Shown in pieces: positions 1 through 34,948 of a DNA stretch of 36,453 bases. Below the pieces are notes generated by a model. It ran no database searches and was not told where the DNA came from. It worked only from the letters and a program-made list of their open reading frames with translations. Source of the stretch: an uncultured Clostridia bacterium (lineage in GTDB: Bacteria > Bacillota > Clostridia > Oscillospirales > Ruminococcaceae); assembly GCA_947625455.1 (NCBI GenBank), contig CANQOJ010000003.1, positions 1 through 36,453 on the forward strand. The letters are read 5' to 3'. Within the stretch, counting starts at the first letter, position 1. Each line of letters begins with the position of its first letter. A program made the position numbers and the translations under genes.

Positions 1-411
1 GCGGGGTTTGAAGTCGGCGCTGACGATTATATAGGAAAACCGTTTCGTCCGAGGGAACTTGTCGCGCGCATAAAAAACGCAGTCCGCAAGCACGCAAGTT
101 CTCCTCAGCTCTTAAAATGCGCGAATGTCGTTATTGATACATCAAGAGGAGTGGTTACCAAAAACGGGAATGAAATTTTCCTGTCGGCGCTTGAATATCG
201 TCTGCTTATGCTGTTTTTTCTCAACAAGAATATTCTGCTGTCAAGAGACAGGATAATGGACGAACTCTGGACGGTTGCGGGGGAATTTGTCGGCGACAAC
301 ACGCTGAATGTCTACATAAAACGCCTGAGGGATAAAATTGAGGACGATCCCGCAAATCCCGCTGTGCTTAAAACAATACGCGGAATGGGTTATAAGGCGG
401 TGGACGAATGA
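1..411 (+). CDS. OmpR-family response regulator, C-terminal part (5' end outside window)
   Basis: The open frame runs in from base 1 with no start. The first residues (AGFEVGADDYIGKPFRPREL) are the end of a receiver domain, with the conserved K-P pair of the alpha4-beta5 region. A linker and an OmpR/PhoB winged-helix DNA-binding domain follow, recognisable by LLSRDRIMDELW, the recognition helix near NTLNVYIKRLRDKIEDD, and the wing TIRGMGYKAVD. It should act as the DNA-binding output of a two-component system. The stop overlaps the kinase start (ATGA at 408-411), so the two are translationally coupled. The phosphorylated Asp lies outside the window. The likely target is the carboxypeptidase promoter at 1420-1485. 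Confidence 0.93.
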   Translation, partial: AGFEVGADDYIGKPFRPRELVARIKNAVRKHASSPQLLKCANVVIDTSRGVVTKNGNEIFLSALEYRLLMLFFLNKNILLSRDRIMDELWTVAGEFVGDNTLNVYIKRLRDKIEDDPANPAVLKTIRGMGYKAVDE

Positions 412-2277: not shown

Positions 2278-3018
2278 ATGACCGAAAATTATCTGATATT
2301 CACCGACCTTGACGGCACGATTATCCGCTCGGCTAAAAACCGCTCTGAAACGGACGTTGTTGTTGAAAGGAAAAACGGAGAGGCAATAACCTGCGTTTCG
2401 GAATTTGCCTTGGGAAAGCTTGCGGGTTTAAAAAACGTTGTTCCCGTTACAACGAGGAGCATTGAACAATATCTGCGCATTGAAATTCCCGATTTCAAGC
2501 CGAAATACGCTATATGTTCAAACGGCGGGAATTTGCTTATAAACGGCGAAATCTGCGGGGAATGGCACAAGTTTTCCGAAACCGAATTTGAAAAGTGCAA
2601 AAGCGAAATGGAAAACTGCCGGAAGATATTTGAAAACGATATTAACCGCAGTTTTGAAATAAGGCTTGTGGACGGGCTTTTTCTGTTTACAAAAAGCCGC
2701 TGCGTTTCAGAAACTCTGAAAAACGCAGGCGGCTTTGAAAATCTTAACTGCTTTTCCGTGGGAGAAAAAGTTTACGCATTCCCGAAAGTTTTGAACAAGG
2801 GAGACGCAGTGAAGCGTTTTATTGAACGCGAAAACTTTAACGGCAAAATCATCTGCGCGGGCGACAGCCTGCCCGATATTCCCATGCTGAATATTGCCGA
2901 TACGGCGATTTTTCCAAACGAACTTTTTGGAGTTACGGCAAAAGAAAAGCTTTGCGCGCCGAGAGAGAATTTCTGTGATTTTACCGCCGAGATGTTCAGC
3001 TGTCAGCAAGGTTTTTGA
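2278..3018 (+). CDS. HAD-superfamily phosphatase of the Ter-associated module
   Basis: This 246-residue HAD hydrolase has motif I FTDLDGT (nucleophile and acid/base Asp), motif II VTTR, motif III lysine in NKGDAVKRF and motif IV AGDSLPD. The cap between motifs II and III resembles the C2 type of sucrose-phosphate-phosphatase/Cof-like enzymes. It should remove phosphate from a small metabolite. HAD phosphatases are part of the Ter-linked operons described by Anantharaman and colleagues (2012). Its 3' end overlaps the convergent stiP gene by 23 bp, which supports membership. ATG 2278 is chosen because it follows a strong ribosome site and the promoter. The substrate is unknown. Confidence 0.85.
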   Translation: MTENYLIFTDLDGTIIRSAKNRSETDVVVERKNGEAITCVSEFALGKLAGLKNVVPVTTRSIEQYLRIEIPDFKPKYAICSNGGNLLINGEICGEWHKFSETEFEKCKSEMENCRKIFENDINRSFEIRLVDGLFLFTKSRCVSETLKNAGGFENLNCFSVGEKVYAFPKVLNKGDAVKRFIERENFNGKIICAGDSLPDIPMLNIADTAIFPNELFGVTAKEKLCAPRENFCDFTAEMFSCQQGF

Positions 3019-4093
3019 TAATCCCGCAGGCTTTGTAGTTTTTCAGCGGGTATTCCATAACCTCAACGCCCTTTTCCTTTGCAAGCTGATATAAATGCGC
3101 TAAATGCTCGTTGTCCGAGAGGCTGTGAACGAGGATTTTCCAGGGCATTCTCCTTAAAAGCACCCTTGTTGCTTCGCCTATACTCGGCTTTATAAGGTTG
3201 ATATCATTAACGCCGAATTTCTCCGCAATCTCTCTGACTTCTTCAAGTCCTCCGCGCATATTTCCCGAACTTTTTTCAAATACGGGCAATGGTCGTTTAT
3301 AATCAAACTTGCTTTCAACGGCGTTTATAAACTCATATGTCCTGTCTTTATCGGACAATTCTTTATAAAACGCCGCACCGTGAAAATCATCTTCGCCGAT
3401 TATGTCGTTGCGCAGAAACGTCCTGCTTAAAAGTCCCGAAACAGTTGAATTAAGCAGTGAACTCGCAATCAGAAAATCATCATGCGTACCGCATTTCTCC
3501 GCCATGTACGCAGGATCTGACAGCACCGCAAGTCCCGCGTTTAATTCGGGATAATCAAACATTGCGTTTTTGAGTTCGCGCTGTATTGCGCCTTTCCCCG
3601 TCCAGCCGTCAACAAACTGTATTGATGTGGGGGAATGGCGTTTTAAGATGAAATTCAGCGCGTTTTTGTCAATGCCTTTCCCGCGGATAATTGAAATTGT
3701 GTAGTGAACGACGTCAGCGTTAAATCTGCCCTTTAAATAGCGTTTAAGCAGTACGCCCACAGATGTTCCCGCGCGGGCAAGAGAAACCAGCACAGCATCT
3801 TTGCCCTTGTCCCGATATATTCTCATAGCGCAGTCAGCTACTGCGTCCGCCGTTATCTGCGAATATAAAGCAAGCGACTTTTCATAAATTCTTAAATACT
3901 CCTCTGTCGGTTCATATTCAAGCGGTAACATCTCCGAATAATGCACTCCGCTTTGTATAAGCTTTTCGCGTTCTTCCGAGCATAAAGGTTTGACAAGTCC
4001 CGTTATGTCCTTTAAAAGTATAACTACATCATCTTCAAGATAAGTTCCAAAAATTTCAACCCACTCCCAGAAAATAAATATGTTTACACCCAA
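2996..4093 (-). CDS. StiP-family predicted cysteine protease with C-terminal PELOTA-like domain
   Basis: Conserved blocks seen are SLARAGTSVGVLLKRYL, HYTISIIRGKGID, FVDGWTGKGAI, LSDPA...GTHDDFL and LNSTVSGLLSRT, all typical of StiP proteins of Ter-linked operons. The C-terminal 65 residues (KPSIGEATRVLLRR to EVMEYPLKNYKACGIIK) match the PELOTA-type RNA-binding domain that ends this family. The protease role is a literature prediction, not shown here. The listed start is TTG at 4093, which overlaps the PRTase gene by 38 bp and has no usable spacing to a ribosome site. Family-like sequence (FGTYLEDDVVILLKD) begins just after an ATT at 4054-4052, which lies 9 nt after GGGAG and directly follows the PRTase stop. 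ATT may be the true start. Confidence 0.85.
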   Translation of the reverse strand: MGVNIFIFWEWVEIFGTYLEDDVVILLKDITGLVKPLCSEEREKLIQSGVHYSEMLPLEYEPTEEYLRIYEKSLALYSQITADAVADCAMRIYRDKGKDAVLVSLARAGTSVGVLLKRYLKGRFNADVVHYTISIIRGKGIDKNALNFILKRHSPTSIQFVDGWTGKGAIQRELKNAMFDYPELNAGLAVLSDPAYMAEKCGTHDDFLIASSLLNSTVSGLLSRTFLRNDIIGEDDFHGAAFYKELSDKDRTYEFINAVESKFDYKRPLPVFEKSSGNMRGGLEEVREIAEKFGVNDINLIKPSIGEATRVLLRRMPWKILVHSLSDNEHLAHLYQLAKEKGVEVMEYPLKNYKACGIIKNLADS

Positions 4094-5156
4094 CCTGCCT
4101 TAACACCCTGCACAAATCGTTCAGTCCGTCCGTGAAATCACTGTTGCTGTCGGATACCACAACGGCGTAATCATGGGGTTTCAGGTTATATATAAACGTT
4201 TCGCGGGTGCTGTCGTAAAAACTTCTTAATTTATAACCGCTGTTTATGGGGTAATCATGCGCGTTGTTTATTCCGATAGGGCTTCTTGTCGTTGAATGGC
4301 AGAGGACGTTCATTCCCTTTTCTTCAAGAATTTCGCCAAGTATAACCGCGGGATACATACACTCTTCAGTGCCTAAAACCAGAATATCTGCGCCTTTCGG
4401 AAAACTTAAAATGTTCTCTGTAATTCTGCGCACTTCGCGTTTGTAATCGCCGATTTTTACGCCCATTCTTGCGTTCGGTATTTTTTCACCGCATTCAATG
4501 ACTTCATATTCGGCGGGCTTTTCATATTCAACGGTTTCCGCGGGTGTTACCCGTATATCCTCAACCGCTTTTTCATAATCGCCAAACGGCAGTTTTAAAA
4601 GGCACTCGGTTTTTATCCCCGCATCGGAAAGCCGTTTTTCGTTTTCCTCGGAAACGCGGTTTATGACTGAAGCGGCGATAAACTCTTTTCCTGTTGCATT
4701 CGGAAATTCCGCTTTTAATTGTTCGGCAATATTTATAAGCGTTTTCCCCGTTGATATTTCATCATCAATGAAGATTATCTGAGGGGTTTTCGAGATAAAC
4801 TCACCGAGGTTTTCGGAATACAATTTTTGTTCAACTGCGTGGCTGTGTTCTTCGGAAAAATAAACAAAGTTACCCTTGAAATCCTCGCGCGTTGTATGAA
4901 TATAAACGCAGTCATCGGGAAAACATTCCGAAACCCCCGCGCCTATTGCGGTAGCGGTTTCGGCAAAGCCTATCACAAGCCTTGCAGATGGGTATTTACG
5001 AAACAGCTTTTCACCTAAAGTCCTCATCATTTCCAGAGATGTTTTTGGACTTACGGGGATATGCTTCGCCTGCAGAGGATTTACAAGAAGATAACTGCGC
5101 TTGGTATTATTCAAGCGCTTTGCTGTTTTCAAAAGTTCGTCTGACGTGTAGTTCAT
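4056..5156 (-). CDS. PRTase_2/TRSP phosphoribosyltransferase of the Ter-associated module
   Basis: The N-terminal half is a phosphoribosyltransferase fold: VIGFAETATAIGAGV (about 61-75) and the PRPP loop IIFIDDEISTGKTL (127-140). The C-terminal half has the TRSP signature, here HSTTRSPIGI (287-296), with DYPINSGY and later VVSDSNSDFTDGL. In Ter-linked operons this protein is predicted to make a ribosylated, nucleoside-like metabolite from PRPP. The gene overlaps the upstream ATP-grasp gene by 4 bp (ATGA), indicating coupled translation, and runs 38 bp into the longest reading of stiP. Substrate base and product are unknown. Confidence 0.88.
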   Translation of the reverse strand: MNYTSDELLKTAKRLNNTKRSYLLVNPLQAKHIPVSPKTSLEMMRTLGEKLFRKYPSARLVIGFAETATAIGAGVSECFPDDCVYIHTTREDFKGNFVYFSEEHSHAVEQKLYSENLGEFISKTPQIIFIDDEISTGKTLINIAEQLKAEFPNATGKEFIAASVINRVSEENEKRLSDAGIKTECLLKLPFGDYEKAVEDIRVTPAETVEYEKPAEYEVIECGEKIPNARMGVKIGDYKREVRRITENILSFPKGADILVLGTEECMYPAVILGEILEEKGMNVLCHSTTRSPIGINNAHDYPINSGYKLRSFYDSTRETFIYNLKPHDYAVVVSDSNSDFTDGLNDLCRVLRQVGCKHIYFLGVG

Positions 5157-6166
5157 TGATGTTCACCTAAAACCAACGGAGTTTCAAGATTTACGACCGT
5201 AGGTATATTGCCTTTTGGATATTCCCACGGCAGTTCATTTCCCAGAAGCCTGTTTAATGCGATTTGCGGGATATTTATTCCTGTTGAGGCGCACGAAAGC
5301 TGAAGCCCGCCCGACATACGCGGGTTGATTTCAAGAAGATACGGTCTGCCGTTTTCAAATTTAAGCTGAATATTAAGCGGCGTTTCAAGTTTTATTTCGT
5401 CAAGTATTCTTTGACAAAGCTTCATTATTTCGCCGTCAAATTTAACGTTTGAATATCTCCCGTTTTTAAATCTCGGAAGAATAATATCGCCCCGCGCTGT
5501 TCTAAGGCAGTCCGAGCTAATTTCCCCGCCGCTCAGATACGGCATAAGCAAAACGGGCGTTTCAAAATCATACTGCCGCATTATTTTAACAGCGGTTTCA
5601 TATGACACTTTCATACCCGGCGCATTTAAAAGCGCTGACAGCTTATCGACATTTTCGTCAATAACGCGAAAACTTCTTGCACCCTCGTCGGTTTCAAGCT
5701 TGTAGCAAACGCGCCCGCAATTGCTTTTAAGTTCACTGTAAGCATCTTCAAATTCCGCTGCCGAATGTGCAGTCAGCGTTTTCGGCACTATTTCGGGGAT
5801 TTTTTTGCTGAAAAACTCGTAGGTTTTCGTTTTGCTGTCCAGTGTTCTAAGCATTTTTGAATTTCTGCTGACAAGCACCTTTGTCCCTGTCCCGTCAAAC
5901 CTTTCAATATTCTCCGCAACAGCTACAAGATTTCTCCTCGGCACAAAAACGTCAATTTTATGAACTCTGCAAAATTCAACGCAAAAATCAACGTATTCGC
6001 TTTCGCTTACATTTTCGGGTTCGGTATAGCGTTCATTACAGGCTTTAAGATAAGCCATATTTGAGTTAGTCGCAGAACCTATAAATTCATACTCTGCGCT
6101 TTCACCGCGCATAAGCCCTATAAGATGATAAGCGGTACTGAACCAGTGATTGAACCAGATACGCAT
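5153..6166 (-). CDS. ATP-grasp ligase of the Ter-associated module
   Basis: This 337-residue protein has an N-terminal pre-ATP-grasp domain (MRIWFNHWFSTAYHLI...). The central lid region is around VCYKLETDEGARSFRVI, and the C-terminal metal site is LNIQLKFENGRPYLLEINPR, with E and N-P-R typical of ATP-grasp magnesium binding. SGGLQLSC follows. It should join a carboxylate to an amine or similar nucleophile using ATP, as a tailoring step in the Ter metabolite pathway (ATPgrasp_Ter type). The start ATG 6166 lies 8 nt after the lyase stop, with AGAGG upstream. Partner substrates cannot be read from sequence. Confidence 0.86.
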   Translation of the reverse strand: MRIWFNHWFSTAYHLIGLMRGESAEYEFIGSATNSNMAYLKACNERYTEPENVSESEYVDFCVEFCRVHKIDVFVPRRNLVAVAENIERFDGTGTKVLVSRNSKMLRTLDSKTKTYEFFSKKIPEIVPKTLTAHSAAEFEDAYSELKSNCGRVCYKLETDEGARSFRVIDENVDKLSALLNAPGMKVSYETAVKIMRQYDFETPVLLMPYLSGGEISSDCLRTARGDIILPRFKNGRYSNVKFDGEIMKLCQRILDEIKLETPLNIQLKFENGRPYLLEINPRMSGGLQLSCASTGINIPQIALNRLLGNELPWEYPKGNIPTVVNLETPLVLGEHQ

Positions 6167-6173
6167 TTTAACT

Positions 6174-7169
6174 TCAAATCCTCTTTATTTCCGAAGAAAC
6201 TTCCTCTTGTATTCCGTAAACCTGCGCCAGCTTTAAAACTCTCTGTGCCCATTTTCCGTGGCATTTTACCTCGTTCATTCTGCTGCTGTCCGCGCTTTTC
6301 GCAACACCGCTGTTTTCATCATTCCACGAGAGTATGTTTTTAGCGTCCTCGTAGTCCGAACGAAGCGGTTTCATGGCGTTGAAGATTATAGGCAACTGCG
6401 AGGGGTGTACGGCGGTTTTGCCGATAAAGCCGTTGAGTTTGTCAAGTTCAAGTTCTTTCCTGAGTCCCCTTGCCCAAGCGTCATTGACGTCATCTCCGAA
6501 ATACTCCCACACCGCCGCCGAAACCGCATAATCCGAACCGAAAACGTTGATTATGTCCGAAAGAATATCCCTTATAACGCCTATGTCGTAGATAGTCTGA
6601 GAAGAATTTCTGCGAAGTCCGTAGAGGTTACTGAAATCATTCCCGCCTACTCTTACGTTAAGTACAAACGGCTTTATATCGTCAAGTACTGCCTTTATCC
6701 CGCAAAGCGATGAAGTTCTGTTTGAAATATCAGCCGCGGTTTTGCTTTCAATTATCGGCATTATATAAAGCCGATTTTCTCTGCCGCTATTTAAATCGGT
6801 GATGATTTGCGCATATTCTTCGGCATTTGAACCGTCGAATTTCGGCAGAATATACCCCGTCAATACCCGCTCTTTTTCGCCTAAAAGGCTGTGAATATGC
6901 AGAAGATGACGAGGCGTTCTTATCCTCACAAATACAAGCGGCAGTTTTCCCTCGTCAATCTCCGAAAGCTGTGCAACCGTGTTCACAAGGCACCTTTCCG
7001 CATACTCAAGCGCCCCGTCAAGCACGGTATCTTCTAAACACAGCGCCATTGACGTAAGGCACTTAAAACAGCCGTTTTTAATTTTCTCCGCAACTTGCGT
7101 ATTTACCGCAGGGGTATACAAAAGCCCTCCGACTTTATACGGCAAAAGGCTGTCGTCTGCTAAATTCAT
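6174..7169 (-). CDS. HpcH/HpaI-like C-C bond lyase (TIM barrel) of the Ter-associated module
   Basis: This 331-residue protein resembles citrate-lyase beta/malyl-CoA-lyase-type TIM barrels. Seen are LYTPAVN near the N-terminus, SMALCLEDTV (metal/CoA-site-like glutamate and aspartate), VFVRIRTPRHL (substrate arginine), YIMPIIESKTA (metal glutamate), LNVRVGGNDFSNLYGLRR (metal aspartate) and GKTAVHPSQLPIIF near the end. These fit the C-C_Bond_Lyase family of Ter operons. It probably cleaves or forms a C-C bond on a 2-oxo acid intermediate. The ribosome site GGGAG precedes ATG 7169. It is the first gene after the terD terminator, so its expression probably depends on readthrough. Confidence 0.85.
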   Translation of the reverse strand: MNLADDSLLPYKVGGLLYTPAVNTQVAEKIKNGCFKCLTSMALCLEDTVLDGALEYAERCLVNTVAQLSEIDEGKLPLVFVRIRTPRHLLHIHSLLGEKERVLTGYILPKFDGSNAEEYAQIITDLNSGRENRLYIMPIIESKTAADISNRTSSLCGIKAVLDDIKPFVLNVRVGGNDFSNLYGLRRNSSQTIYDIGVIRDILSDIINVFGSDYAVSAAVWEYFGDDVNDAWARGLRKELELDKLNGFIGKTAVHPSQLPIIFNAMKPLRSDYEDAKNILSWNDENSGVAKSADSSRMNEVKCHGKWAQRVLKLAQVYGIQEEVSSEIKRI

Positions 7170-7194
7170 TTACGCTCCCTAAAAAAACAAAAAC

Positions 7195-7230
7195 AGTAAG
7201 AGCCTACAAAACCACTCATAGGCTCTTACT
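7195..7230 (-). terminator. Intrinsic terminator/attenuator between terD and the biosynthetic genes
   Basis: AGTAAGAGCCTA (7195-7206) pairs perfectly with TAGGCTCTTACT (7219-7230), a 12-bp stem with a 12-nt loop. Read on the minus strand it is followed by GTTTTTGTTTTTTT. It lies 14 nt after the terD stop and about 25 nt before the lyase start. It would uncouple abundant terD mRNA from low-level expression of the downstream enzymes. Confidence 0.88.
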
Positions 7231-7243
7231 TCATAAATTCCGA

Positions 7244-7822
7244 TTAAACGTTTACGCCGTAATTCATGCAAAGTTCTTTAAGTCCGCCCGCAAAACCGCT
7301 TCCTATGGCGTTGAACTTCCATTCGCCGTTGTGTCTGTAAAGCTCTGCGAAAACAATCGCTGTTTCTATTGAGAAATCCTCACACAGGTCATAGCGCACA
7401 AGCTCTGTGTTATTCGCCTGGTCAACAATGCGAATAAAAGCGTTTTCTACCTGCCCGAAATTCTGCGCGCGGTTTTCACAATCGTAGATTGTTACCGTAA
7501 AGGCAATTTTCTCAACATCTGCGGGAATTTTCGTCAAATCAACGACAATCTGCTCGTCGTCGCCCTCTCCCTCGCCCGTCAGGTTGTCGCCCATATGCTC
7601 AACCCCTCCGCAGGCATGCTTTAAATTTCCGTAGAAAACAAAATCTCCGTCGCTCTTGACTTTGCCGTTTGAGCCGAGTAAAAACGCCTCAGTATCAAGG
7701 TCAAACGCCGAGCCTCCCGAATATTTGTTTACGTCCCAGCCAAGCCCCACAACAAGCTTTGAAAGTCCGGGATTGCCTTTTGTAAGGTCTACTTTTTGTC
7801 CTTTAACCAAACTAACTGCCAT
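7244..7822 (-). CDS. terD: TerD-family stress/metal-sensing protein
   Basis: This 192-residue single TerD domain starts [19 protein letters not shown] and contains [47 protein letters not shown] and [16 protein letters not shown]. The Asp-rich [13 protein letters not shown] and DLD stretches match the calcium-binding acidic motifs of this family. TerD proteins are cytoplasmic, bind Ca2+ and associate with membrane complexes in tellurite, colicin or phage stress responses. ATG 7822 is chosen over the upstream frame because GGAGG (7832-7836) sits 9 nt before it. Only one terD paralogue is present; terB, terC, terZ and terA are not seen. Confidence 0.95.
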
Positions 7823-7873
7823 TTTATTTTTCCTCCATATTTTCATGACGGTTTAATCCGCATTTCTATGTTG

Positions 7874-10075: not shown

Positions 10076-10160
10076 ACTAGAGACTAGACGCATTATCCTC
10101 CTTCGTCGGATAACGCTTTAAGAGGCTAGAGGCTAGACATGGTATCCGCTTCGCGGATAA
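10076..10160. repeat. Heptad/palindrome intergenic repeat, copy after the chemoreceptor gene
   Basis: This contains CTAGAGA CTAGACG heptads (10077-10090), a hairpin GCATTATCC...GGATAACGC (10091-10116), TTAAGAGG CTAGAGG CTAGAC heptads (10117-10137), and a second perfect hairpin TATCCGC-ttc-GCGGATA (10143-10159). The heptad-plus-first-hairpin unit matches the reverse complement of 34880-34938. The GGCTAGACATGGT..CCGC stretch recurs inverted at 23669-23697. Confidence 0.75.
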
Positions 10161-12815: not shown

Positions 12816-12834
12816 ATTTTAAGTCCTTTTCTTT

Positions 12835-12954
12835 TAGAGGTAAGATGTTAGATGTAAGAGGTAAGAGTTTGAGCCGAAATGTGATTTTGCCGTTTAGAAG
12901 TAAGGGGTTAGATGTAGGAGGTAAGAGTTTGAACTTGAACGCTGTTTTGCTGAT
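12835..12954. repeat. Two tandem 60-bp units carrying heptad repeats
   Basis: Units 12835-12894 and 12895-12954 align at a period of 60. Both open TAGA(G/A)GTAAG, contain TTAGATGTA(A/G)GAGGTAAGAG, and end ...TTTTGC(C/T)G. Inside each, TAAGATG/TTAGATG/TAAGAGG run as 7-nt units. They lie upstream of the YfhO gene. The rest of the 400-bp gap holds an element relic (13002-13018), a possible -10 and the EAL promoter. Confidence 0.7.
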
Positions 12955-13215: not shown

Positions 13216-14424
13216 ATGGCAATTGAATTAAACAAAGAGAATATCGCGGGACTTATTGAAAAGGCTTTTGAAAACCATGAAATAAAGGTTTACTATCAGC
13301 CGAAATTCAGCGCGGTAAACAGCAAGATTATGGGCGCAGAGGCTTTGGCGCGCTGGCAGATGTCGGACGGGGTTATGATTTCGCCCGCTATGTTTGTGCC
13401 TTTGCTTGAAGAATTAGGGCTTATAATAGACCTGGACTGGTATGTTTTCAGAGAGGTGTGCAGGTTTATTGCAGATGAACGCAAGGCGGGCGGGAAAGTT
13501 GTCACGGTTTCATCTAACTTCTCGCGCTTTCACGCAAGAGAAGCGGATTTTACAAAAAAGCTGTCTGAAATTGCCGACGAATACAACGTGCCGAGGAAGT
13601 ATCTTGAAGTTGAGATAACCGAGTCCGCTTTAGCGTTTGAGGGAGTGGACATAATCGACTTTGTAAGTTCAATAAAGGACGCGGGTTTCGCCATTTCAAT
13701 CGACGATTTCGGAAGCGGACTTTCATCGCTTAACTTCGTAAAGGACGTTCCCGCAAGCGAACTTAAAATCGACAAATCGCTTCTTTCGCACAACTGTGAA
13801 AACGAAAAAGAGAGGATTGTCCTTGAAGCAATATTCGAGTTTGCGCACAGGCTGAATATGACCACCGTTGCAGAGGGCGTTGAAACGAAAGAACAGCTTG
13901 GTTTTCTGAGAACCTGCGGCTGTGAACTGATACAGGGATATTTATTCGCAAAGCCCATGCCCGAAGAGGATTTCAGGAATATCCTCCTGCAATCCGAGAA
14001 AACAACGGAAACCGAGGACATTTTGCTTGTTCAGTCGCCTGCTACAGCGTCACAGCTTTTGCTTGACGCGGTGTTCACGGAATATCCGCTTGTTATCATG
14101 AGCAACCTTTCTAGAAACAGCTTTTATATGATGGCATATGAAAACTTTTCAACCCGCTCCTGCCCGTCAACAGGCGTATATACCGAACTTATCGTTCACG
14201 GCGCGTCTACAATGTACCCCGACGACCAAAAGCTGTTTTCCGATACGTTTGACATAGACGACCAGATTAAGGCTTACGAAAGAGGAGAGCGCACAAGAAG
14301 AGTAGTCACGCGTCAGCTTGGAGACGACGGCATATACAGAAAAGTTGAAACTACAAACTACTATATGAAAAATCCCAACAGCGACGATATACTTGCGATA
14401 ACTCTAAGTCACGCCGTTGAATAA
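13216..14424 (+). CDS. EAL-domain cyclic-di-GMP phosphodiesterase with C-terminal PAS-like domain
   Basis: The N-terminal EAL domain (about 1-262) is complete: substrate-binding QPKF, the EALAR motif (E42-A-L), metal residues in LEVEITES, DDFGSGLSSL with the catalytic Asp pair, KIDKSLL, AEGVET and the terminal IQGYLFAKPM. It should hydrolyse c-di-GMP to pGpG in the cytoplasm, favouring motility. The last ~140 residues (from about LVQSPATASQLLLDAV to ITLSHAVE) form a separate alpha/beta domain resembling the degenerate PAS-like sensors appended to signalling proteins in Clostridia; its ligand is unknown. There is no membrane segment and no GGDEF. The stop is 7 bp before a dispersed element. 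Confidence 0.92.
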   Translation: MAIELNKENIAGLIEKAFENHEIKVYYQPKFSAVNSKIMGAEALARWQMSDGVMISPAMFVPLLEELGLIIDLDWYVFREVCRFIADERKAGGKVVTVSSNFSRFHAREADFTKKLSEIADEYNVPRKYLEVEITESALAFEGVDIIDFVSSIKDAGFAISIDDFGSGLSSLNFVKDVPASELKIDKSLLSHNCENEKERIVLEAIFEFAHRLNMTTVAEGVETKEQLGFLRTCGCELIQGYLFAKPMPEEDFRNILLQSEKTTETEDILLVQSPATASQLLLDAVFTEYPLVIMSNLSRNSFYMMAYENFSTRSCPSTGVYTELIVHGASTMYPDDQKLFSDTFDIDDQIKAYERGERTRRVVTRQLGDDGIYRKVETTNYYMKNPNSDDILAITLSHAVE

Positions 14425-14431
14425 AATTTAT

Positions 14432-14608
14432 CAGACTGTAGATAAAGCCCCATCTACGTCGTCAGCGTAGCAGCGTTTTCCGCGTAGCGGATAATGCGTG
14501 CAGGCACAAAGCCTAGCCGCAGCCACGCTTCAGCGTTGTGCGCGAAGCGCACATTGCGGTATCTGGGACTTTCTCTACAGTCTGAGGCTTGACTTTTTAT
14601 ACAAACTG
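14432..14608 (+). mobile_element. Terminal-inverted-repeat element (MITE-like), copy 1
   Basis: This 177-bp copy opens CAGACTGTAGATAAAGCCCCA (14432-14452), pairing 19/21 with its inner 3' arm at 14564-14584. It then continues through a GACTTTTTATA-type tail to an outer end ACAAACTG. Internal hairpins are TCCGC-gta-GCGGA (14479-14491), GTGCGC-gaa-GCGCAC (14538-14552) and GGC-ACAAA-GCC (about 14503-14513). No coding sequence is evident. No clean flanking duplication is seen, only GAATAAA at 14419 and 14609. The lipoprotein gene starts 24 bp after the element. Confidence 0.8.
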
Positions 14609-21366: not shown

Positions 21367-21407
21367 ACAGTATCCCCCTTTCTGAAGAATAAAACTATGA
21401 TTATCTT

Positions 21408-21587
21408 CAGACTGTCGATAAAGCCTCATCTGCGTTGTCAGCGTCACTGCAACAGCCACAAAGGCTAGTTGCAGTTAAGCTTCAGCGTTGAGCGCCCAGT
21501 GTTTTCCTCGAAGCGGATAATACGCGCTCAACGCGAGCATACTGAGGCTTTCTCAACAGTCTGAAATTTGATTTATTATACAGCCTG
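21408..21587 (+). mobile_element. Terminal-inverted-repeat element (MITE-like), copy 2, with 10-bp target duplication
   Basis: This 180-bp copy starts CAGACTGTCGATAAAGCCTCA (21408-21428), pairs with its inner arm TGAGGCTTTCTCAACAGTCTG minus one base (21543-21563), and ends TATACAGCCTG at 21587. It is bordered exactly by TGATTATCTT at 21398-21407 and 21588-21597, a perfect 10-bp direct repeat. The right-hand copy covers the metG stop codon. Internal hairpin TGCAAC-a-GCC-ACAAA-GGC-ta-GTTGCA is seen. No open frame is evident. Confidence 0.9.
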
Positions 21588-21590
21588 TGA

Positions 21591-23528
21591 TTATCTTATG
21601 GTGCTTCCGTTGGGCACATCTTTGTCTAAGAACAATACCCTCACATCATCTTCTCCCGCGTCACACGCGAGTATCATGCCCTCCGACAATTCCCCGCACA
21701 GCTTTGCGGGAGCCAGATTCGCCACAAAAACAATCTTCTTCCCGACAAGGTCCTCGGGCTTATACCACTTTGCAATTCCCGAAACTATCTGCCTGCCCTG
21801 TCTCCCGTCGTCAACAGTGAGTTTTAAAAGCTTCTTGGCTTTCGGAATTTTCTCGCAGGCGGTAACTTCTCCGCTTCTGAGTTTTATCTCGGCAAATTGC
21901 TCAATGTTTATGACATTCGCCTTGTCGAGGTCCTCGTCCTCGCGTATGGTCTTTTCGGGTTTCAGCAAGGCGTTTAGTTCGTCAATTTCCTTTTCAATGT
22001 CAATTCTTGGGAAAAGCACTTCTCCTTTCTTGACCGTAACGTCAGCGGGCAGTTTTCCGAATTTCCCTAAAACATCATATTCAACGTCCTCTGCTTTTGC
22101 GCCAATCTGCTCAAATACTTTCGGCATTGTTTCGGGCATAAACGGCAAAAGCAGCGCCGAGCATATCCTTATGGTTTCAAGCAGGTTGTACAAAACCGAC
22201 GCAAGACGCGCTTTTTTACTTTCGTCCTTGCCGAGTTTCCACGGTTCTGTTTCGTCAATATACTTGTTTGCTCTTGAAACAACTTTGAATATCTCCTCAA
22301 GCGCGCTTGACAGCCTTGCTTCTTCAACAAGCGGAGTTACCTTTTCGCAAAGAGCCTCGGCCATGCTTATAAGTTCATTGTCGAGCGGCTCTGCTTCGCG
22401 CTCTGTCGGCAGTGTACCGCCGAAATACTTGTCGGCCATTGCAACAGTTCTCGAAACGAGATTTCCGAGGTCGTTTGCAAGGTCGGAGTTTATGCGGTTT
22501 ATCATGATTTCGTTTGAGAAATTGCTGTCCGAGCCGAACGGCATATCGCGCAGTATCTGATACCTAACCGCGTCAGCCCCGTAACGCTCTGCGAGTATGA
22601 ACGGATCAATGACGTTACCGACTGATTTTGACATCTTCTGCCCGTTGAAGTTTATCCAGCCGTGACCGTAAAGCCTTTTCGGAAGCGGAATTTCAAGCAT
22701 CATCAGCATAATAATCCACACAATCGAGTGGAAACGCACGATTTCTTTCGCCGTCATGTGCATATCCGCAGGCCAGTATTTGTCGAAATCATCATAAGCG
22801 TCGTTTTCATACCCTAACGCGCTTATATAGTTAGTCAGCGCGTCAATCCAGACGTAAACAACGTGCTTTTCGTCAAACGTAACGGGAATGCCCCAGGTAA
22901 ACGACGTTCTCGAAACGCACAAATCCTCAAGTCCGGGCTTTATAAAGTTGTTCACCATCTCGTTTACGCGCGACTTAGGAGTGAGGTAGTCGGTTTCGGT
23001 GAGGAATTTTTCTATCCTGTCGGCAAAATCCGAGATTTTCAGAAAATATGCTTCTTCATGTGCGTCAATAACAGGTCTGTGACAGTCGGGACAGCACCCG
23101 TTTTCATCAAGCTGGCTTTCCGTCCAGAAACTCTCGCACGGCATGCAGTATTTGCCCGTGTATTCTCCCTTGTAGATATATCCCTTGTCGTACAGCTTTT
23201 TGAAAACGCTTTGTACGGTTTTTATGTGATAATCGTCGGTGGTGCGGATAAAGCGGTCGTTGCTAATTCCCATAACTTTCCAGAGCTTCTTGAAGTTGTC
23301 AACAATGGGATCAACATATTCTTTCGGGGTAATCCCTAAATCCTTTGCCTTTTGTTCTATCTTCATTCCGTGTTCGTCAGTGCCCGTAAGGAACATAACG
23401 TCATATCCCTGCATACGCTTGAACCTTGCGATAACGTCGCACGCAACCGTAGTATAGCAGTGACCGATATGCGGGTTGCCCGACGGGTAATAAATCGGTG
23501 TCGTAATATAAAACTTCTTTTTCTCCAT
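21591..23528 (-). CDS. metG: Methionyl-tRNA synthetase
   Basis: This 645-residue class I synthetase has the HIGH motif in YYPSGNPHIGHCYTT and the KMSKS motif in GQKMSKSVGN. Its zinc knuckle has two Cys pairs (CMPCE and CCPDC). An alpha-helical anticodon-binding region follows, then a C-terminal tRNA-binding OB domain (from about IEQFAEIKLRSGEVTACEKIPKAKKLLKL to the end) fused as in many Gram-positive enzymes. It charges tRNA-Met. GGAAGGA precedes ATG 23528. The insertion of copy 2 ends at its stop codon and recreated it through the target duplication, so the protein is intact. Confidence 0.98.
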   Translation of the reverse strand: MEKKKFYITTPIYYPSGNPHIGHCYTTVACDVIARFKRMQGYDVMFLTGTDEHGMKIEQKAKDLGITPKEYVDPIVDNFKKLWKVMGISNDRFIRTTDDYHIKTVQSVFKKLYDKGYIYKGEYTGKYCMPCESFWTESQLDENGCCPDCHRPVIDAHEEAYFLKISDFADRIEKFLTETDYLTPKSRVNEMVNNFIKPGLEDLCVSRTSFTWGIPVTFDEKHVVYVWIDALTNYISALGYENDAYDDFDKYWPADMHMTAKEIVRFHSIVWIIMLMMLEIPLPKRLYGHGWINFNGQKMSKSVGNVIDPFILAERYGADAVRYQILRDMPFGSDSNFSNEIMINRINSDLANDLGNLVSRTVAMADKYFGGTLPTEREAEPLDNELISMAEALCEKVTPLVEEARLSSALEEIFKVVSRANKYIDETEPWKLGKDESKKARLASVLYNLLETIRICSALLLPFMPETMPKVFEQIGAKAEDVEYDVLGKFGKLPADVTVKKGEVLFPRIDIEKEIDELNALLKPEKTIREDEDLDKANVINIEQFAEIKLRSGEVTACEKIPKAKKLLKLTVDDGRQGRQIVSGIAKWYKPEDLVGKKIVFVANLAPAKLCGELSEGMILACDAGEDDVRVLFLDKDVPNGSTIR

Positions 23529-33299: not shown

Positions 33300-33515
33300 A
33301 TGGCATTTTTTACACCGGTACTATTGTTACGCAGAAAAGTAATCGTAAAACGGTTGATTGCTTGCGGTGCGACCTCGGAAAAAATGGCAAAAACATTGGC
33401 TGAAGCAGGCGTGATCAATCCTAACGGTTTCGGTCGATTTACGCAGAAACTCGTAGAAATGGGAACGATACATATGACTTCCGACGGCAGATATTATGTA
33501 TCAGGCTGTCGATAA
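33300..33515 (+). CDS. Small basic protein of unknown function
   Basis: This 71-residue protein starts MAFFTPVLLLRRKVIVKRLI and has a winged-helix-like feel (ATSEKMAKTLAEAGVINPNG; FTQKLVEMGTIHMTSDGRYY), so a DNA-binding fold is possible but unproven. AGGAGG (33287-33292) sits 7 nt before ATG 33300. The final residues SGCR and the stop are encoded by the inserted element copy 3, so the original C-terminus was probably different. Confidence 0.7.
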   Translation: MAFFTPVLLLRRKVIVKRLIACGATSEKMAKTLAEAGVINPNGFGRFTQKLVEMGTIHMTSDGRYYVSGCR

Positions 33516-33680
33516 AGCCCCATCTGCGTCGTCAACGGCACAGCGTTTTCCGCCGCAGGCGGATAATGCGTGCAGGCACAAAGCCTAGCCGTAGCACCGT
33601 TTCAGCGTTTTGCGCTCGCGCATAATGCGTGCATCTGAGGCTTTCTCGACAGCCTGAGGTTGGACTTTTTATACAGTCTG
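33502..33680 (+). mobile_element. Terminal-inverted-repeat element (MITE-like), copy 3, with 7-bp target duplication
   Basis: This 179-bp copy starts CAGGCTGTCGATAAAGCCCCA (33502-33522). The inner arm (33636-33656) pairs with it, and the outer end is TATACAGTCTG. TATGTAT abuts both ends (33495-33501 and 33681-33687). Internal hairpins are TCCGCC-gca-GGCGGA (33549-33563), TGCGC-tc-GCGCA (33611-33622) and GGC-ACAAA-GCC. It lies across the end of the upstream gene and donates its stop codon. Confidence 0.85.
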
Positions 33681-33711
33681 TATGTATGAAAACTTTTTTA
33701 AAATAATGAAA

Positions 33712-34800: not shown

Positions 34801-34948
34801 CTGCTAGAGGTTAGAAATCAAGAAGTTAGAGGCTAGAGTTGAAGCTAAAACAAGGTTTAAAAATGAAATCTTGTTTTAGTCTAAACTCTAGCCTCTGGCT
34901 TCTTAAAGCGTTATGCGCGTAGCGCATAATGCGTCTAACATCTAGCAG
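34801..34948. repeat. Long nested inverted repeat (heptad/palindrome family) between convergent genes
   Basis: Outer arms CTGCTAGAGGTTAGA (34801-34815) and TCTAACATCTAGCAG (34934-34948) pair 14/15. Inner arms 34820-34854 and 34870-34904 pair 30/35. A separate perfect hairpin GCGTTATGCGC-gta-GCGCATAATGC sits at 34908-34932. The right outer arm encodes the last residues (T-A-R-C) and stop of FliB. It may terminate transcription from both sides but lacks U-tracts. Confidence 0.8.

Follow-up and report, generated by a model that had tools for sequence, protein, structure and literature searches.

ERIC, BOX and Correia sequences are intergenic, foldable repeats of 100-200 bp with optional internal segments, features that they share with the element described here; their ends, target duplications and internal modules, compared by description rather than by sequence, are different from those of the element. 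Among the repeats bcr1-bcr18 of the Bacillus cereus group, bcr1-bcr3 are MITE-like, bcr10 and bcr18 have a conserved RNA structure, and about half of the repeats are transcribed within UTRs or operons (PMC3446304 and references therein). REPs have complementary stem variants, form head-to-head dimers and are found within larger palindromes (PMC3733652). IS1272, a member of the IS1182 family from staphylococci, targets hairpins without generating a target duplication (TSD), and the hairpin is lost (PMC4923244, PMC5678879); a hairpin duplication has been drawn as an alternative model (Fig. 13 of PMC5678879, outcome 6b). The repeat that we analysed is genuine: it is a MITE specific to one genus, it targets hairpins and its fold is maintained. 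When it is compared by description, not by sequence, with bcr1-bcr18, it is likewise a group-specific, interspersed, MITE-like repeat with a conserved secondary structure, as some of those repeats have, and it differs from them in belonging to another Firmicutes class and in having IS1182-like ends, hairpin duplications and nested palindromic modules.

The plus strand of the window, by which we mean the whole stretch of 36,453 nucleotides that was analysed, carries three copies of the element, at 14432-14584, 21408-21563 and 33502-33656. The arm motif CAGRCTGTNGA matches six times in the window, compared with 0.04 matches expected, and these matches pair as three inverted repeats. A 24-bp outer motif, with a consensus end of about GACTTTTTATACAGTCTG, lies directly 3' of all three copies. 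As this motif adjoins copy 1, the interval 14432-14608 (plus strand), recognised by its TIRs and outer motif, is exactly one complete element of the 155-bp class. The motif itself, AGGCTTGACTTTTTATACAAACTG at 14585-14608 (plus), was identified as the outer 3' end of the element from the TSDs lying outside it and from the empty site of copy 3. Copy 1 starts just 3' of the stop codon of an EAL gene (13216-14424) and has no clean target duplication (left flank GAATAAAATTTAT, right flank GAATAAA). On the plus strand it contains a left REP-like module found by pattern match (AGCGTTTTCCGCGTAGCGGATAATGCG, 14472-14498), the core hairpin GGC-ACAAA-GCC (14503-14513) and a right module (AGCGTTGTGCGCGAAGCGCACATTGCG, 14532-14558), the last two read from the sequence. 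Copy 2 was delimited by its arms and outer motif and occupies 21408-21587 (plus) when the motif is included. Comparison of its flanks revealed a 10-bp target duplication, TGATTATCTT, at 21398-21407 and 21588-21597 (plus), the right-hand one of which includes the stop codon of a methionyl-tRNA-synthetase-like ORF on the minus strand (21591-23528). The outer arms of this copy read CAGACTGTCGA/TCAACAGTCTG, with one C.A mismatch on the plus strand. Its right module (21484-21535, plus) is a GCGTTGAGCGC hairpin whose loop, by sequence, holds a nested TTTTCC..GCGGATAATACG hairpin; this copy (L034) and L051 both have a module nested in its own loop. Copy 3 spans 179 bp with its outer motif (33502-33680, plus), as defined by the empty orthologous sites L233 and L234, and comparison with the empty site places a 7-bp target duplication, TATGTAT, at 33495-33501 and 33681-33687 (plus). 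Its left and right modules, both found by pattern match on the plus strand, are AGCGTTTTCCGCCGCAGGCGGATAATGCG at 33542-33570 and AGCGTTTTGCGCTCGCGCATAATGCG at 33604-33629. The predicted folds of the three copies have z-scores of -6.8, -5.0 and -10.2 against dinucleotide shuffles. Elsewhere in the window, a run of minus-strand ORFs at 2996-7846 resembles, by eye and from the translations only, a TerD / ATP-grasp / phosphoribosyltransferase / aldolase stress-type operon.

For analysis, copies were treated as separate loci (L numbers) and genomes were given G numbers, the window's own genome being G000. BLAST located the element at 49 places in this genome (2.30 Mb, 269 contigs), and the end (TIR) motif had 314 matches in its 2.3 Mb, versus 71 for the reversed control; the genome holds about 100 copies of the element. 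Since many of these copies lie at contig ends (C204:1-55, C84:31-77, C120:27-79, C139:27-77 and C166:1-72), the assembly is interrupted by the repeat, and the copy numbers given are minimum values. Among the genomes searched, the element is restricted to one genus: it was found in 31 of 36 other genomes of the genus, and so in 32 of 37 with its own, in none of 24 genomes from other genera of the order and in none of 118 from other genera of the family. The named matches are all to Oscillospiraceae or uncultured Clostridia MAGs, which are gut bacteria. Rfam returned no match at the gathering score (best 13 bits versus 45, E 0.68). A phage link was rejected, as a scan of IMG/VR with the left end of the element gave no match. 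The minimal form measures 105 bp, and forms of 130 and 155 bp arise by the addition of one or two extra hairpin modules, which sit at two fixed positions in a constant orientation (76 to 0). Overall, the element comprises 105-160 bp plus the 24-bp outer motif, with a long outer stem and no transposase. Two apparent elements, L173 (247 bp) and L192 (304 bp), were pairings of unrelated ends and were left out of the alignments.

The empty site of copy 3, together with significant target duplications and precise ends, shows that the element moves. The small gene upstream of copy 3 has orthologues in two relatives that lack the insertion and have the sequence ...TATTATGTG TGAAAACTTTT; the occupied site in the window has ...TATTATGTAT, then the 179-bp element, then TATGTATGAAAACTTTT, with 7 bp duplicated. 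Through the insertion, the TGA stop was exchanged for a TAA that belongs to the element, and the protein gains SGCR relative to its orthologues. The small plus-strand ORF concerned (33300-33515) continues into the element and takes its stop codon from there. All three sites occupied in the window are empty in most relatives. Among 156 copies with the outer motif, a TSD score of at least 6 was found in 52, versus 0.5 expected, and a TSD was absent in 104. The duplications fall into lengths of 6-11 (mode 7) and 17-28; the long ones are mostly self-complementary, about 14-16 of 19 being duplications of a whole hairpin, as exemplified by TAGCGGACTGCTTTAAAACAGTCCGCTT on each side of L067. We also considered the short TSDs as duplications of hairpin loops and rejected this, as the sequences that flank 33 short TSDs do not form palindromes. 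The ends of the element are TIR-like (CAGRCTGTCGATAAAG...CTTTTTATACAGTCTG). L095 and L128 occupy the same orthologous site; L095 has the outer 24 bp and L128 lacks exactly these, so the inner CAGTCTG can become an end, giving two alternative right ends; the alternative end probably arises by recombination between the two CAGTCTG repeats.

A search with PF13751 recovered, from the genus, IS copies with ends that start with CAGTCTGTATATAAA, CAGCCTGTCGAAAAA, CAGTCTGTCGAAAAA or CAGACTGTAGAAAAA. Two of them, L255 (AAGGGGAAAACTTTTTTCAAAAAGTTTTCCCCTT) and L257 (AGCTCCCCGTTACGGGGAGCT), are flanked by duplicated hairpins and score 379 and 301 bits, respectively, against NF033551 (NCBIfam IS1182, cut-off 270 bits). 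This cut-off is exceeded in G000 and G021, and the 379-bit protein is from the window's own genome. Of 19 terminal positions, 12-16 agree between the MITE ends and the IS ends CAGACTGTAGAAAAA, CAGCCTGTCGAAAAA and CAGTCTGTATATAAA. Among the IS copies of the genus, none was found that has the full MITE end (CAGRCTGTCGATAAAGCCYCATCTGCG) or the same long TIRs, and relatives of the IS1182-type transposase are kept in only 5 of 43 genomes; for these reasons the link to IS1182 is one that we infer, and the parent may be another element. A described IS1182-derived MITE was looked for and not found among the papers searched. Points in common with IS1272 and the IS1182 family are the presence of the DDE transposase family in the genus and the preference for inverted-repeat or terminator targets. 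Unlike IS1182-family insertion sequences, the MITE has no transposase and its interior is structured. It also differs from IS1272, which is reported to lack TSDs and to replace the hairpin, in showing short TSDs and whole-hairpin duplications; what we found were duplications, not IS1272-like hairpin replacement without a TSD, and replacement may have occurred in part of the 104 copies that lack one. TSD-less hairpin replacement is a defining trait of IS1272 and not of the IS1182 family as a whole. An IS1182-type DDE transposase that prefers hairpins as targets is the probable mobiliser of the element.

A preliminary description of copy 1 had proposed, from the three window copies, that they differ at paired sites while keeping the stem. 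This is borne out in a family that extends far beyond three copies. We aligned 114 distinct 105-bp copies without gaps, built a FastTree tree, and evaluated a structure consisting of an outer stem (columns 1-26/80-105), an inner arm (33-46/61-74) and a core (48-50/56-58). With a null in which each column's changes were placed at random on the tree, a model that recombination between copies violates, the summed G of 2208 was about eightfold above the simulated 266 ± 62 (maximum 463 in 300 simulations), and 13 of 41 pairs exceeded all 300 simulations. Structures slid by 1-3 columns reached summed G values of 190-500. In a set of 60 diverse copies read on the plus strand, both sides had changed in 30 of 40 pairs, and covariation was 0.352, versus 0.129 ± 0.006 for shuffled and 0.04-0.07 for slid structures, a level attained by none of 500 shuffles. 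Parsimony assigned about 129 double changes, 74 of them transition pairs and 55 transversion pairs. The covariation test that the preliminary description had suggested therefore yields a signal far above shuffles, slid structures and the tree-aware null, and the long outer stem and the roughly 14-bp inner arm, capped by GCC-UUUGU-GGC on the minus strand, are maintained.

The best-surviving alternative, which we nevertheless regard as rather unlikely, is that the palindrome is kept at the DNA level without selection on the fold, through arm-templated repair (hairpin or quasipalindrome correction) and conversion of copies by one another. Exchange of interior blocks, as this would entail, is evident at orthologous sites with conserved flanks: the interior is 152 bp with a GGC core in L006 and 105 bp with a GCC core in L061, and further swaps separate L050/L099/L308, L119/L125, L121/L203, and L103 from L171. 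In L298/L314, four neighbouring pairs have changed together, and the 55 transversion pairs, for which there is no wobble route, also fit such upkeep. As interiors are swapped between copies, the closure of the ACAAA loop, correctly given in the preliminary description as GGC/GCC at 14503 and 33575 (copies 1 and 3) and GCC/GGC at 21455 (copy 2), may reflect different haplotypes and, taken alone, counts for little as evidence; the outer arms of copies 1 and 3 likewise read as described there, and from the three window copies alone compensation cannot be told from an exchange of haplotypes. However, adjacent double changes fall on the same branch in only 15 of the 129 double changes, and L103 and L124, two 155-bp elements with flanks 89-94% identical, have as their sole difference one C-G pair changed to T-A on both sides (2 of 155 bases). 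L109/L295 and L129/L130 show one one-sided change each, and both leave A.C on the plus strand, that is, G.U on the minus strand. Stepwise change and block exchange thus both occur, and gene conversion alone, raised in the preliminary description as a possible full explanation, does not account for a single paired change of this kind or for mismatches biased to G.U on one strand.

Correction and the double-stranded cruciform are strand-neutral, yet the two strands of the element are not equivalent. Standard pairs in the 60-copy set amount to 97.0% on the minus (transposase-sense) strand and 92.4% on the plus strand, and covariation is 0.435 versus 0.352. The mean MFE is -69.3 kcal/mol for the minus strand versus -58.1 kcal/mol for the plus strand, about 11 better, with the minus strand folding better in 110 of 114 copies. 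Non-Watson-Crick cells on the plus strand are A.C rather than G.T in both the arm (130 vs 19) and the outer stem (118 vs 29). The same asymmetry was found in the events themselves, one-sided changes on the plus strand leading to A.C 78-79 times and to G.T about 41 times, and in their precursors, changes into a proper pair starting from A.C about 82-88 times and from G.T about 4 times. Counted by columns, the strand bias is 20 vs 8 (p = 0.036) and of moderate strength only, with columns 38/69, 39/68, 9/97, 17/89 and 15/91 carrying much of the signal; singleton mismatches, counted from the alignment table, are balanced (14 kinds with A.C vs 15 with G.T), and in the 155-bp forms the strand difference nearly vanishes. 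Mutation bias was rejected as the source of the A.C excess, as the spectrum in unpaired columns (C>T 39 vs G>A 2) favours C>T, which would give G.T. Since A.C on the plus strand is G.U on the minus strand, and cruciform formation and templated repair do not distinguish strands, a single strand, RNA or ssDNA, is indicated. Where a change on one side only is tolerated, it mostly leaves G.U on the minus strand, and this supports, short of proof, a folded single strand in the minus orientation, a putative RNA or ssDNA, as the thing maintained. The preliminary description was therefore right that structure is conserved, as the covariation shows, but not in the strand that it read, the fold of the minus strand being the better conserved.

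It is improbable that the element is instead a host cis RNA element, such as a terminator, attenuator or mRNA-end stabiliser, with its fold kept by selection on neighbouring genes. Its context would suit such a role: 136 of 138 copies lie outside long ORFs, with median gaps to genes of 27 and 62 bp, and many copies are at terminator-like hairpins. Some orthologous copies also differ less than their flanks, as in L103/L124 (2 of 155 bases vs 6-11%), but others, L298/L314 and L317/L322, diverge as much as their flanks do, and we dropped slower change in the element than in its flanks as proof of constraint, as it holds for some orthologous pairs only. There is no U-tract 3' of the fold, the sites of the window copies are empty in most relatives, and the orientation bias relative to flanking genes is not significant (+,+ 48; -,- 34; 138 copies with context). 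Because copies lie in both gene orientations without clear bias, we consider that the fold serves the element rather than its neighbours; it would act in the element's own life cycle, through strand stability or processing or through recognition by the transposase.

The GC-rich hairpins had been taken to change on both strands together. Their differences instead reflect module variety, not point compensation, as both lengths and positions differ in the window; they are an independent mobile palindrome, outside the basic fold, of 27-29 bp and sitting at two fixed sites of the element. The module pattern, GCGTTNTNCGC-loop-GCGNATAATGC, has 83 matches in the window's own genome and is present in 29 of 43 genomes of the genus, with prevailing stem variants that differ between genomes; it never occurs in the reversed control, and a slightly longer pattern had no match in any of 244 other genomes of the order. 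Free-standing modules in the window, at 34907-34933 (plus, by pattern match, outside any element) and 10090-10116 (minus), reside in other repeats. At 12833-12950 in the window and 3' of the EAL gene in L173-L180, there are other short repeat families, of the TTAGAGGTTAGAAGTAAGAGG and CAGTGTACAGTGGACAGT types, that often host the module. In an IS200 Y1 transposase gene, TAGTACC[CTC]TGCAC has become TAGTACC-AGCGTTATTCGCCGCAGGCGAATAATGCG-TGCAC; as the module lies inside the gene and replaces three bases, it is itself an insertion. Such Y1-gene insertions, with three target bases replaced, were seen in G065 (L364, L368 and L373) and G034 (L365), at about position 1563 in L365, L368 and L373. The module folds better on the plus strand (-15.1 vs -10.8), opposite to its host MITE. 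In G011 there are many BIME-like, head-to-head module pairs about 22 bp apart whose partners carry different stem variants, for example C10:155-181(+) and 204-228(-).

The module thus shares with REP/BIME sequences (PMC3733652) a 27-29 bp palindrome, complementary stem variants, head-to-head dimers and a location within larger palindromes, and it differs from REPs with GTAG or CGTC tags in having neither tag nor RAYT and in occurring, among the genomes searched, in one genus only. A REP/BIME system mobilised by a RAYT (Y1) transposase, to which the short palindrome, its conserved foot (AGCGTT...AATGCG), the genome-specific stem variants and the closely spaced pairs of G011 would point, is extremely improbable, and we rejected it for the module, as Y1_Tnp was found neither in the window's genome nor in G011, G005, G009, G025 and G007, which are rich in modules, the module interrupts the Y1 gene where the two coincide, no GTAG or CGTC tag was found at the module foot and no RAYT gene flanked by the module, and the target duplications of the large element are of the kind that DDE transposition typically leaves.

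We consider it probable, though well short of certain, that the repeat is a MITE moved by a hairpin-preferring IS1182-type DDE transposase, that its fold is maintained on a single strand of minus orientation, and that it carries a second mobile palindrome inside. This palindrome would have been inserted at two positions of an ancestral element, and it would since have been shuffled among copies. A more specific reading, that the minus strand is the source of a putative structured RNA or of an ssDNA hairpin that persists, either of which aids the element's own mobilisation by the hairpin-targeting IS1182-type transposase, seems to us very improbable. The family is a natural experiment: a single palindromic mobile element is available in more than 100 sequenced copies, some of them at orthologous sites, and these allow selection on one strand to be separated from palindrome correction at the DNA level. 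The element provides cases in which entire terminator hairpins are duplicated, as has been drawn in a model for IS1272 (IS1182 family), and its palindromes nested in palindromes bear on the spread of REP-like repeats without a RAYT. If the reading as minus-strand RNA or ssDNA is true, this would be a DDE mobile element selected for a single-strand fold.
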